This document shows positions 21,123 through 26,691 of a DNA stretch of 34,108 nt, in pieces; within the stretch, counting starts at the first letter, position 1; the number at the start of each line of letters is the position of its first letter. The stretch covers positions 1-34,108 of the forward strand of contig VFKQ01000264.1 of NCBI GenBank assembly GCA_009885445.1. The letters are read 5' to 3'. Source of the DNA: Anaerolineaceae bacterium (GTDB lineage Bacteria; Chloroflexota; Anaerolineae; Anaerolineales; Villigracilaceae). The notes under the pieces are model-generated. The model ran no database searches. It saw only the letters and a program-made list of their open reading frames with translations, and was not told the DNA's origin. The translations under genes and the position numbers were made by a program.

Positions 21123-21651
21123 GTACATGGACGACCCCTCCACTCCCGCCAGCGAAGGCTTCGGCTTGATGTACTATTGCGATAGCACCCTTTAGGGCGG
21201 CGCGCGCTGGTACGATCCCTCTCTGGGACGCTCCCCGACACTTGCCTCCGGGGCCATGGTCGCCCAACCCGACAGCATCGTCCCCACGTCCACGCAAGGC
21301 ACGCAGGCCTGGGACAGGTATGCTTATGTCAATGGGAATCCGGTCAAGTACTCGGACCCGACGGGACATAGCGTGGATTGCTGTATTGGGATGGGATGCG
21401 TCGGTAGTTGAACCAACCCGAATGACCCGACTCCTCCAGCAGATGATCCAGATGTTGTGGACGATGATGATGAGCTGGATTGTATGGGAGCGGATTTTTG
21501 GGAATGTAATTTTGACTGGGGCGTTTTGAGAAAAATGCTGGTAAGACCTGCGGTCGGGTTACAGACCCGTGCCGAGCAAGTAAATACCTTTGATCAACTG
21601 CGGGATTTTATTTTGCGGGAAAGGCATGTGTTATTCCGATTGATGATGTGA
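21121..21651 (+). pseudogene. remnant of an Rhs/YD-repeat protein (core end plus variable C-terminus)
   Basis: One frame reads PYMDDPSTPASEGFGLMYY...GARWYDPSLGRSPT...QPDSIVPTSTQGTQAWDRYAYVNGNPVKYSDPTGHSVDCCIGMGCVGS*TNPNDPTPP...; interrupted by TAG (21193) and TGA (21409). Confidence 0.82.
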
Positions 21652-21764
21652 GAGAATTCTTTATGTAAATCAGCGCGATCGCATATCATCCCCGAATGGG
21701 GAGATTCCGCTGGAGCATTAAGGTCGACGAAAATAAGGCGCGGAGTGTATAAGGAAATGCCCAC

Positions 21765-22529
21765 TTACGATTTCCCTTTTATGATCTGCCAGATCATAAC
21801 AAATCCGCCGATTGCCCCGCCAATTGCCCCGCCAATTGCCCCGCCTAAGGTCCAGCCGATCGCCTCGCCGATTGCCCCGCCGATTGCCCCGCCGATTGCC
21901 AAGCCGATTGCCCCGCCGATTGCCCAAGCCAGAATTATCCAGAGCGTGCTATTCCAATCAGAAAGAATATGTTCAATGCGTAACGTGATTCCAATGACAA
22001 GCTCGCCGATTGCCCCGCCGATTGCCCCGCCACCTGCCAAGTTGATGTCGATTGCCCCGCCAATTGCCCAACCGATTGCCCAGGCCAGAGTGATCCAGAG
22101 CATGTTTTTCCAATCAGAAAGAACATGTTCAATGCGTAAGGTGATTGCAATAACAAGCCCGCCGATTGCCCCGCCGATTGCCAAGCCGATTGGCCAGCCG
22201 ATGTCCCAGCCGATTGCATCGACGAAAGCCCAGCCGATTGCCCAGCCGATTGCCCCGCCAATTGCCCAGCCCAGCGTTATCCAGACTATGGCGATCCATT
22301 TTGGAATAGAAATTGGTTTAGGGGTATCTGGTAAATCTGTCTGCACCCATTTCATGCCATCATGACGATACCATAATTCGGTCTCATAGCCCATCATCCA
22401 CCAACTTCCTTGCTCATCCCGTATCATCAGGTCTTCAAGTTGTGCCTTGAATTTAGCATTAGTCAATGTCCCTGCTTCAAACTGAGCTTTGAGTTGTTTG
22501 AATCTTTTCTCTGCTTGCTTGATATCCAT
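21765..22529 (-). CDS. SHOCT-like N-terminal domain + glycine-zipper repeat membrane protein
   Basis: 254 aa; N-terminus KQAEKRFKQLKAQFEAGTLTNAKFKAQLEDLMIRDEQGSWWMMGYETELWYRHDGMKWVQ; then many G-x-A-I tetrads. Confidence 0.75.
   Translation of the reverse strand: MDIKQAEKRFKQLKAQFEAGTLTNAKFKAQLEDLMIRDEQGSWWMMGYETELWYRHDGMKWVQTDLPDTPKPISIPKWIAIVWITLGWAIGGAIGWAIGWAFVDAIGWDIGWPIGLAIGGAIGGLVIAITLRIEHVLSDWKNMLWITLAWAIGWAIGGAIDINLAGGGAIGGAIGELVIGITLRIEHILSDWNSTLWIILAWAIGGAIGLAIGGAIGGAIGEAIGWTLGGAIGGAIGGAIGGFVMIWQIIKGKS
21805..22270. repeat. interrupted 12-bp tandem repeat (GATTGCCCCGCC and variants)
   Basis: Repeated attgccccgccg/a units; also two ~70-bp higher-order copies at ~21956 and ~22109. 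Confidence 0.9.
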
Positions 22530-22554: not shown

Positions 22555-24054
22555 CTATTTTGGCAAATCCTTAGGTTTTCCGCGCAAAGTAATTTCCTCA
22601 GGCATCGATTTTGGCTTTGATGATTTTATATCTTCAGGGAAAGATGCGGGCTTAGTATATTGAAATATTGGCGGTTCTTGTTCAGTTTTAGCTTTTTTAT
22701 CAAATTGCTTTTCTTTGGCGAGACGTTCAACTTCAATCTTTGCTCTTGTACTGCGCTCTTCTTCCACTTTTTGAGCCGCGAGTCGTTTTACCTCATCCTT
22801 AGCCTTTTGTTCTTCATCTTCCTTTTGCTCAGCCAACAATCGCTCAGCCTCTTGTTTGGCTTTTCGTTCAGTTTCTATTTTTTCTGCACGCAGTCGCTTT
22901 GCTTCCATCTTTGCTTTTGCAACGCGTTCTTCTTCAGCCTTTTGTTTAGCCAATAATCTTCCGGCCTCTTCTTGAGCTCTTCGTTCTACTTCCAGTTTTT
23001 CAGCCGTCAGAAGCTCTTCTTCGGCTCTTAGTAATGCAAGACGTTCTGATTCCCCCCTTGATTTTCGTTCATCCTCTGCCTGGCGAATAGATTCCAGCAC
23101 TTGCGTTGCCAGTTGTTCTACACGGCGGGTTGTGTTTTCATCTGTAGCAACCTTCTCCAGCGCTTCGCGGGCTGAACGCGCCAGTCCAATATTCTTGCCT
23201 CTAAGAATCTTTTCTAATTTTTGCACTGCCGCTTCACGCACATAGGGACGAGTATCTTCGATTTCGCTGATAAGATCGTCGGGTAAATCTACAGGCTTGA
23301 TATTTTCAATACGCGTACTTTGGCGCAGGACAATTTCTCCTTGTTGCCTGCTAGAAAATTTTGACGGGGTTTGCTTCGGGGTGGCGATCCTTACCTTCTC
23401 ATAAGCATAATCATATAACTCATCAACTGTGACACGCCCGTCGCTGTCCAAATCCGCTTCGCCTTCCAGGCCTTCCACCAGATAGTGAGTAAATAAGGAA
23501 TTGTCGGTTTCGCCAATAACCTTATCGCCTTCCCATGCGAATTGGGTCGAGTCGCTGGCGGTCAGGATGATGCGACCATAGCCGCTCTCAAAAGCGGAAG
23601 CGGTTCCGATACTGACACCCGTCGCGGCTTTTGTGCCTTGTGCAACAGCGCCACTATTGCAACAATCCAGAATTAATACTTGCCGCCTCGAACGGCTTTG
23701 ATCCATCGCCTCACGAATGTAATCCGATTTAATTGCAGTAGATCTTAAGCGGGAACGAATTGTATTCTTGACAGCCAAATATAATGAGCCAAGTTCGTCA
23801 CGAACACCGTGCCCTGAAAAATACAGAACAAGCAAATCATCGGGCTTCTTCTGGTCGAAAAATTCATCAATCCCTTCGTTCACGGCGGCTGATAATTGAT
23901 TCAATAAAATATTGACACTATCAAACGCGCCAATCTCCTGATCTTTAAGGACACGCGCGAAATCTTCCGTATCCTTGCCAGGCGCGGTGAGTTGCGCCAG
24001 ACCTGGGTCGGTGTATTCCGTGTTGCCAATGATCAGGGCGAACTTTCCACTCAT
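22555..24054 (-). CDS. caspase-like (peptidase C14) protease with EF-hand-like loop, helical repeats and coiled coil
   Basis: Catalytic His in LVLYFSGHGVRD and Cys in VLILDCCNSGA; DLDSDGRVTVDE loop; PYVREAAVQKLEKIL; C-terminal (A/E)ERLLAEQK-type repeats. Confidence 0.9.
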   Translation of the reverse strand: MSGKFALIIGNTEYTDPGLAQLTAPGKDTEDFARVLKDQEIGAFDSVNILLNQLSAAVNEGIDEFFDQKKPDDLLVLYFSGHGVRDELGSLYLAVKNTIRSRLRSTAIKSDYIREAMDQSRSRRQVLILDCCNSGAVAQGTKAATGVSIGTASAFESGYGRIILTASDSTQFAWEGDKVIGETDNSLFTHYLVEGLEGEADLDSDGRVTVDELYDYAYEKVRIATPKQTPSKFSSRQQGEIVLRQSTRIENIKPVDLPDDLISEIEDTRPYVREAAVQKLEKILRGKNIGLARSAREALEKVATDENTTRRVEQLATQVLESIRQAEDERKSRGESERLALLRAEEELLTAEKLEVERRAQEEAGRLLAKQKAEEERVAKAKMEAKRLRAEKIETERKAKQEAERLLAEQKEDEEQKAKDEVKRLAAQKVEEERSTRAKIEVERLAKEKQFDKKAKTEQEPPIFQYTKPASFPEDIKSSKPKSMPEEITLRGKPKDLPK

Positions 24055-25427: not shown

Positions 25428-25506
25428 ATTATCAAGTTTCCGGGCAGTCCCGCGCGCACAATCTCCAGTCTCTGGTCACTAATCTCTAATCACTATTCTC
25501 TATTCT

Positions 25507-26691
25507 CTATTCTCTATTCTTTTCTCTCCCCTCCCCCAACCCCTCATACACCCGCACCAACTTCTTCTGCGCCTCGTGCCAGGTGAACTTCGTCAGCGCG
25601 CGCGCGGATGCAGACTCAGCCAACTTTTGCGACAACTCAAAATCATTCAGCAAGGCCAGCGTCTGCCGCGCCAGGTCGTCGGGGTCGGACGGCGAGAAGA
25701 GCAGGCCGTCCACGTCTTCGCGCACCAACTCGCGCACGATGGGCATATTCGACGCCAGCAATGGCCGTCCCGCCGCCATGTATTCGAGCACCTTAATCGG
25801 GCAGGCGCCCTGCGTCACATTGCGGTCGTTCAGTCCCAGCGGCGCCACGCAGAGGTCCGAGGATGCAATCAGCGCGGGCACTTCGTGATGCGCCACCGCC
25901 GGCTCGATGCTGACGTGTTCCTCGAGTCCCAATTTGCGAATCTGCTTCGCCAATATTTTTCGCTGACGTGACCGTCCGCGCCCCACAATTTGGAGGTGTA
26001 TCGGTTGCTGTGCGAGAATCTTCGGCATCGCTTTGATGACGACGTCCAGTCCCTGCCAATCGGCCAGCGTGCCGAGGTACAACAGGACGGGCACGCGCCC
26101 CGTCCGCGCTGGTAGCGGGCTGGGCGAAAAATCTGAGGGGCTGACTCCGTTCGGGATGACGGTCACCCGCTCACGGCGGACGCCGAGCGAGGCCAGGTAG
26201 TCGCGAGTCACCCGCGAGGGACAGATGATTCCGTCGGCGCTGTGCAGAGTCGCCAATTCCTGTTCTTTTATTTTTGCAATCAGCTCGTGTTCGGTTTCGG
26301 GGTAATGATATTTCAGCTCCACCGAGGCGAGGCCGTTGACCTCAAACAGAGTCTTGTATCCATATTTTTTTTTGTTCTGCACAATGTGCAGGCCGTCCCA
26401 GATATTTCGAAAGTGGACAACGTCATATTTTTCGTTGAGCGCCAGATGCGCGGCCACCGCCTGGCCGAAATGAATCGCCCGCGACAAAAAGTTTTGCGAC
26501 AAATCCTGCGCGATGCGCGTCACCTGCGCGCCTTCGAGCATCTCCTCTGCGGGATGCACTCCGTCGTTCGGCGTGAACAAGTGGACGGTATAATTGGCGG
26601 CGACCAGCCCGCGCAGATTGTGCAAAATATGTGTCGAGGCCCCCTTCGGGCTGGGCACAATGTCGAAGGCAGTGTAGAGGACTCTTTTCAT
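25507..26691 (-). CDS. glycosyltransferase family 4 protein
   Basis: MKRVLYTAFDIVPSPKGASTHILHNLRGL, VIPNGVSPSDFSP, CPIKVLEYMAAGRPLLAS; start moved to 26691. Confidence 0.92.
   Translation of the reverse strand: MKRVLYTAFDIVPSPKGASTHILHNLRGLVAANYTVHLFTPNDGVHPAEEMLEGAQVTRIAQDLSQNFLSRAIHFGQAVAAHLALNEKYDVVHFRNIWDGLHIVQNKKKYGYKTLFEVNGLASVELKYHYPETEHELIAKIKEQELATLHSADGIICPSRVTRDYLASLGVRRERVTVIPNGVSPSDFSPSPLPARTGRVPVLLYLGTLADWQGLDVVIKAMPKILAQQPIHLQIVGRGRSRQRKILAKQIRKLGLEEHVSIEPAVAHHEVPALIASSDLCVAPLGLNDRNVTQGACPIKVLEYMAAGRPLLASNMPIVRELVREDVDGLLFSPSDPDDLARQTLALLNDFELSQKLAESASARALTKFTWHEAQKKLVRVYEGLGEGREKNRE

Follow-up and report, generated by a model that had tools for sequence, protein, structure and literature searches.

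Gene organization of the locus

The analyzed stretch of DNA (34,108 nucleotides from an Anaerolineaceae bacterium; the window) carries a three-gene operon encoding, in this order, a small EACC1-like membrane protein, a caspase and a predicted membrane protein rich in glycine-zipper motifs (hereafter, the zipper protein) (Table 1). The genes are tightly packed: the caspase and EACC1-like genes overlap by 4 bp, and the zipper gene lies 25 bp downstream of the caspase gene. An open reading frame on the plus strand (21745-22365) was rejected as a mere shadow of the zipper gene on the minus strand.

Table 1. Features of the operon and its surroundings (positions within the window).
Feature	Position	Strand	Basis and remarks
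Y1/REP-type transposase, 3'-end remnant	21564..21662	+	tblastn E = 3e-9; convergent with zipper gene
Glycine-zipper membrane protein gene	21765..22529	-	ATG at 22529, stop 21765-21767, 254 aa; third gene of operon
Membrane hairpin 3, residues 192-252 (predicted)	21774..21956	-	AlphaFold2 helices 192-224, 226-252
12-bp repeat array, 10.1 copies	21805..21925		Tandem Repeats Finder; excess over recoded control
156-bp unit, 1.9 copies (one hairpin + linker duplicated)	21893..22182		Tandem Repeats Finder
Membrane hairpin 2, residues 140-185 (predicted)	21975..22112	-	AlphaFold2 helices 140-159, 164-185
12-bp repeat array	22004-22031		Tandem Repeats Finder
Membrane hairpin 1, residues 77-133 (predicted)	22131..22301	-	AlphaFold2 helices 77-106, 108-133, modest confidence; hydropathy
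12-bp repeat array, 9.7 copies	22157..22271		Tandem Repeats Finder
Soluble N-terminal domain, residues 1-68, Trp-rich	22326..22529	-	AlphaFold2 mean pLDDT 86; homologues
Caspase, 499 aa, Peptidase_C14 residues 4-235	22555..24054	-	PF00656 2e-20; NCBIfam NF047832
Tail at the caspase C-terminus, residues 472-499 (FPEDIKSSKPKSMPEEITLRGKPKDLPK); putative docking peptide	22558..22641	-	common to window and genome G593
Charged repetitive coiled-coil-like caspase linker, residues 326-460	22675..23079	-	divergence from G466 caspase begins here
Small EACC1-like membrane protein with a single hydrophobic helix, 123 aa	24051..24422	-	first operon gene; homologues directly 5' of caspase genes in relatives

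The caspase matches the NCBIfam model NF047832 ("caspase, EACC1-associated type") with 169.9 bits against a cut-off of 140, and its His-Cys dyad is recognized by motif only (His82 in FSGHG, Cys131/Cys132 in LDCC). The Pfam profile of EACC1 (PF19953) does not reach the window copy of the 123-aa protein; one of ten homologues of this protein matches it (5.1e-5) and the homologues share an invariant core, and through this transitive homology the 5' gene with its single transmembrane helix is probably an EACC1 gene. The constant part of the caspase is followed by a variable one, since the protein is 77% identical to the caspase of genome G466 over residues 1-325 and then diverges. As judged from sequence, the operon matches the published EACC1-caspase conflict system (PMC7159879), here in a three-gene form, and its predicted role is immunity or cell suicide.

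In the order to which the window belongs, the C-terminal region of the caspases varies: an FGE-sulfatase/C-type-lectin fold was found in this position, and a TolB-like propeller, NosD-like repeats and multi-helix membrane regions were recognized by eye. The genome from which the window derives carries a second EACC1-caspase pair (G000:C289, L084:2205-4591), whose caspase bears a C-terminal FGE-sulfatase lectin-fold domain confirmed with Pfam. In genome G591 (L123:2299-3240), inspection by eye suggests that a TIR-like domain is joined to the EACC1-like protein; the operon also has another TIR gene at its side. To our knowledge, no trigger or membrane partner has been demonstrated for bacterial caspases of EACC1 systems.

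Intact homologues of the Y1 transposase whose remnant is seen in the window occur in G466 and G594 (loci L064 and L124), in both of which they are convergent with the caspase gene, and the copy in L064 is assigned to Y1_Tnp (PF01797). At ~21199-21411 (+), a stretch that by eye looks like the terminal part of an Rhs core (ARWYDPSLGR...RYAYVNGNPVKYSDPTGH) had no Pfam match, and a CTATTCT heptamer tandemly repeated in ~6 copies (25479-25528) overlaps the 3' end of a glycosyltransferase gene.

Composition, DNA repeats and predicted structure of the zipper protein

The C-terminal part of the zipper protein contains 41 Ile, 40 Gly, 26 Ala and 16 Trp, and runs of GxxxGxxxG start at 16 of its glycines. 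As these runs lie in hydrophobic helices (by hydropathy and AlphaFold2), the abundance of GxxxG helices claimed in the preliminary description is borne out, and the protein belongs to the glycine-zipper class in the descriptive sense of this term; no HMM match to the Pfam glycine-zipper families was obtained for it or its relatives.

The 12-bp DNA repeats of the preliminary description also proved real. They were delimited by Tandem Repeats Finder, and recurring 12-mers make up 33.8% of the module, compared with a mean of 6.5% and a maximum of 16.4% in 500 recodings in which the same protein was back-translated with the codon usage of the window. Furthermore, GCA accounts for 21 of the 26 Ala codons in the module (11% elsewhere in the window), and two units of 52 aa use the same codon at 28 of their 35 identical residues (15.6 expected). 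Because 12-mer recurrence exceeds that of the recoded control, and because of the GCA skew and the shared codons, the repeats stem from duplication of DNA in addition to the amino-acid motif. The 156-bp unit and the shared codons also uphold the internal duplication within the higher-order units that had been described, whereas their supposed number of two gives way to three predicted two-helix hairpins.

A single-sequence AlphaFold2 model of the full-length protein (pLDDT 68, pTM 0.48) consists of six helices forming three hairpins, and the C-terminal part is predicted to be a six-helix, three-hairpin membrane region. Lys and Arg residues are absent from the hairpin loops and present in the linkers and at the C-terminus, which suggests that the N-terminus and the inter-hairpin linkers are cytoplasmic. 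The protein had no sequence match in PDB, and a fold search with the full-length model, weak since its pLDDT is 68, returned nothing significant. Modelled alone, the N-terminal domain (N-domain) contains two helices and a three-stranded sheet (pLDDT 86); this sheet has conserved Trp residues. An identity as a proline-binding domain of the WW/GYF type was not confirmed, the N-domain having no significant match to anything in Pfam or PDB or by fold. Its pattern, D..G.WWMLG...G.WYR.DG..WV (alignment A3), marks an unnamed domain that is widespread in the phylum, where relatives are fused to FHA-like, zinc-ribbon and membrane regions.

A split version of the system in a second genome

The three-gene order EACC1-like, caspase, zipper is kept in genome G593, with identities to the window of 56%, 58% and 37%, respectively. 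The zipper homologue (L125:3431-4168; tblastn E = 4e-46) is an open frame of 245 aa in the equivalent position, and its N-domain is 68% identical to that of the window. 12-mer repetition in this gene amounts to 1.6%, versus 33.8% in the window. The idea that the gene is in essence a DNA repeat finds no support: since the homologue is almost without 12-bp repetition, the conserved feature is the membrane architecture, and the array looks like a local, lineage-specific DNA expansion. A search of seven further genomes of the genus did not detect the zipper gene. In G593, a TIR gene adjoins it (L125:4381-5697).

The caspase of G466 continues into the membrane module after residue 325, whereas in that of the window this position is followed by a charged linker, after which the protein terminates and the next gene encodes the module. 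Both split caspases end in a common tail, FPEDI[KR]SSKP.S[ML]PEEI.LRGKP.DLPK, identical at 23 of 28 positions between the window and G593. Among 149 genomes of the family, this tail was found only in these two caspases (E 1.2e-16 and 2.5e-11; next 0.085), and it is absent from all fused caspases compared. As the tail co-occurs with the split gene and is missing from the fused caspases, we hypothesize that it docks onto the N-domain of the zipper protein. With two split loci known, the pairing of tail and N-domain may also be simply co-inherited, and the presence of the N-domain in many unrelated proteins, with no significant fold match, speaks against the docking hypothesis.

Recurrence of the module on caspase, TIR and kinase proteins

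The hairpin module of the zipper protein recurs in the order at the C-terminus of proteins with three kinds of heads. These are: (i) six caspases (G466, G589 (two, in tandem), G591, G594 and G619), (ii) four TIR proteins (G460, G643, G607 and G599) and (iii) three Ser/Thr kinases (G533, G586 and G007). Headless, free proteins with five hairpins were identified in G087 and G638. At L067:7868-9711 and L128:2451-4177, in two genomes, such free versions adjoin a pair of genes whose products resemble cyclic-di-AMP receptors (PF06153 in L067), and a link to c-di-AMP signalling is possible.

Three kinds of shuffles, the strictest of which keeps the tetrads intact, guarded against chance likeness of glycine-rich helices. 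For each of five relatives, the observed score with the window module was reached by none of 300 shuffles, with z = 7.9-15.2 against tetrad-preserving shuffles; the homology of the module across its partners exceeds what composition and tetrad periodicity would give. A non-glycine linker motif, L..E..LS.WK...WI.LAWAIG, is also conserved among the relatives.

The module profile matched 18 of 152 genomes of the window's family, most with E < 1e-20, and about three weak matches among the 18 (in G637, G634 and G062) are probably due to chance. Scanning 349 sampled genomes of the phylum gave matches in members of the family only. Candidates from G400, G339, G202, G637 (an MFS transporter) and G634 (MscL-like) were attributed to chance or to a distant resemblance between glycine-rich helices and were excluded. 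No exact relatives of the zipper gene were found in the viral contigs, genome contigs or plasmids searched, and the G466 module alone had no match in plasmids.

A tree of the modules places TIR and caspase types intermixed within one group (support 89/90), the other branches being weak, and the clustering of head labels is close to that of shuffled labels; an exchange of heads between modules is suggested. In eight genomes (G460, G643, G607, G466, G594, G593, G589 and G525), the same alpha-amylase gene adjoins the module or EACC1-caspase loci. This site is one chromosomal slot for TIR, caspase and split versions, resembling a defence hotspot; the variable slot at the side of the alpha-amylase gene, with TIR or caspase conflict genes, was observed in L064, L065, L085, L120, L121, L122, L124 and L125. 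The preliminary description had overlooked the EACC1-caspase operon, the soluble N-domain and the tail of the caspase, as well as the recurrence of the module on heads of the caspase, TIR and kinase types.

Proposed mechanism and alternative explanations

We propose that the zipper protein is the membrane-bound sensing and oligomerizing component of the three-gene EACC1-caspase system, a tentative reading that we rate as a little short of evenly balanced. Somewhat less probable is its extension, a conjecture in which the unnamed hairpin module would serve three unrelated immune-type enzymes of one order (caspases, TIR domains and Ser/Thr kinases) as a shared sensor in the membrane and as their platform for assembly, being either fused to them or, when separate, gripping the short tail of the caspase. 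The six-helix module would sit in the inner membrane, with the N-domain and the inter-hairpin linkers in the cytoplasm, and its GxxxG packing would allow it to respond to a disturbed membrane or to assemble within one, e.g. during phage entry. Assembly of the module would gather the attached enzymes; in the window, the N-domain of the platform would grip the proline-containing tail of the caspase and thereby recruit this enzyme, and the activated caspase would cleave its targets and thereby cause arrest or death of the cell. Caspases, TIR domains and Ser/Thr kinases are commonly activated by proximity, and therefore one platform could drive all three heads; the C-termini of kinases are usually sensory.

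The platform is favoured by the presence of the module on three unrelated enzyme heads, by the typical activation of these heads through proximity, and also by the lectin-fold domains that share the C-terminal slot of the caspases, because C-terminal C-type-lectin domains in such conflict systems have been proposed as sensors (PMC10907252). Against it stand the six helices being a prediction only, taken from a single-sequence model with pLDDT 68 and pTM 0.48, and the view of Kaur et al., who read the C-terminal domains of caspases as effectors deployed by proteolysis, not as sensors (PMC7159879). Their view would suit a pore-forming effector, in which the EACC1-like protein senses a trigger, the caspase in turn releases the zipper protein or switches it on, and an oligomer formed through the glycine faces depolarizes the membrane. 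This main rival is, in our estimation, less probable than the platform, even though the zipper protein is separate from the caspase in both the window and G593, and orthocaspases cleave after basic residues (PMC6426788), which the juxtamembrane and inter-hairpin linkers of the zipper protein carry. The module is fused to TIR and kinase heads too, of which TIR would already be an effector, and searches by sequence and by fold did not connect it to any known pore former, the fold search being weak since the model is weak.

Still less probable is a passive membrane anchor, whose hairpins would merely hold signalling enzymes while the glycine repeats arose by DNA slippage in a tolerant sequence. 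The lineage-specific 12-bp array, absent from the G593 homologue, and the free five-hairpin versions devoid of a head would agree with it; however, a conserved linker motif together with at least three hairpins goes beyond what an anchor requires, and the module stays coupled to immune-type heads. A region of short repeats in an assembly of 404 contigs also raises the question of an assembly artefact or non-coding repeat, but G593 is an independent genome whose homologue is an open frame of similar length in the same position, free of the repeats, and matches to the module profile recur across the family as given above. This explanation is highly improbable, and the assembly artefact was rejected on the G593 homologue.

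The natural fusions and fissions described here point to a specific partner, a specific docking peptide and a specific membrane module for a caspase of an EACC1 system. That one membrane module serves caspase, TIR and kinase heads alike would, if true, be analogous to animal and plant immunity, in which such enzymes are gathered on shared platforms.

Comparison with known systems

Membrane effectors of CBASS, Pycsar and similar systems tie membrane helices to immune-type signalling, as the system of the window may do, but the latter is devoid of a nucleotide-signal domain and has no sequence match to them. In bacterial gasdermin-caspase pairs, a caspase lies beside a membrane-active partner, and the window caspase likewise adjoins a candidate membrane-active protein. 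The window protein, unlike gasdermin, is predicted to consist of alpha-helical hairpins; no Pfam or PDB sequence match to gasdermin was found, nor a significant fold match, on a model of modest confidence. Another defence operon with a predicted glycine-zipper protein shares the presence of a zipper in a defence context, whereas the operon itself differs.

Likenesses are also seen with putative sensor/effector conflict proteins of the FGE/CLec type (PMC10907252), whose caspase-like, TIR or kinase heads are combined with a C-terminal module that can be exchanged. In the order of the window, the C-terminal slot of caspases is likewise filled by FGE domains, whereas the window module is composed of predicted membrane-embedded hairpins. 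The EACC1-caspase two-gene system, System 4 of Kaur et al. 2020, for which the anti-invader/cell-death function is a prediction in the founding paper too, has its main range in Actinobacteria and some Proteobacteria (PMC7159879), while the host of the window belongs to Chloroflexota. The window operon resembles System 4 in its 5' EACC1-like gene, its 3' caspase with a variable C-terminal region and its predicted association with the membrane, and differs from it in that the variable part is encoded by a gene of its own, the third of the operon, while the caspase has a conserved tail at its end instead.
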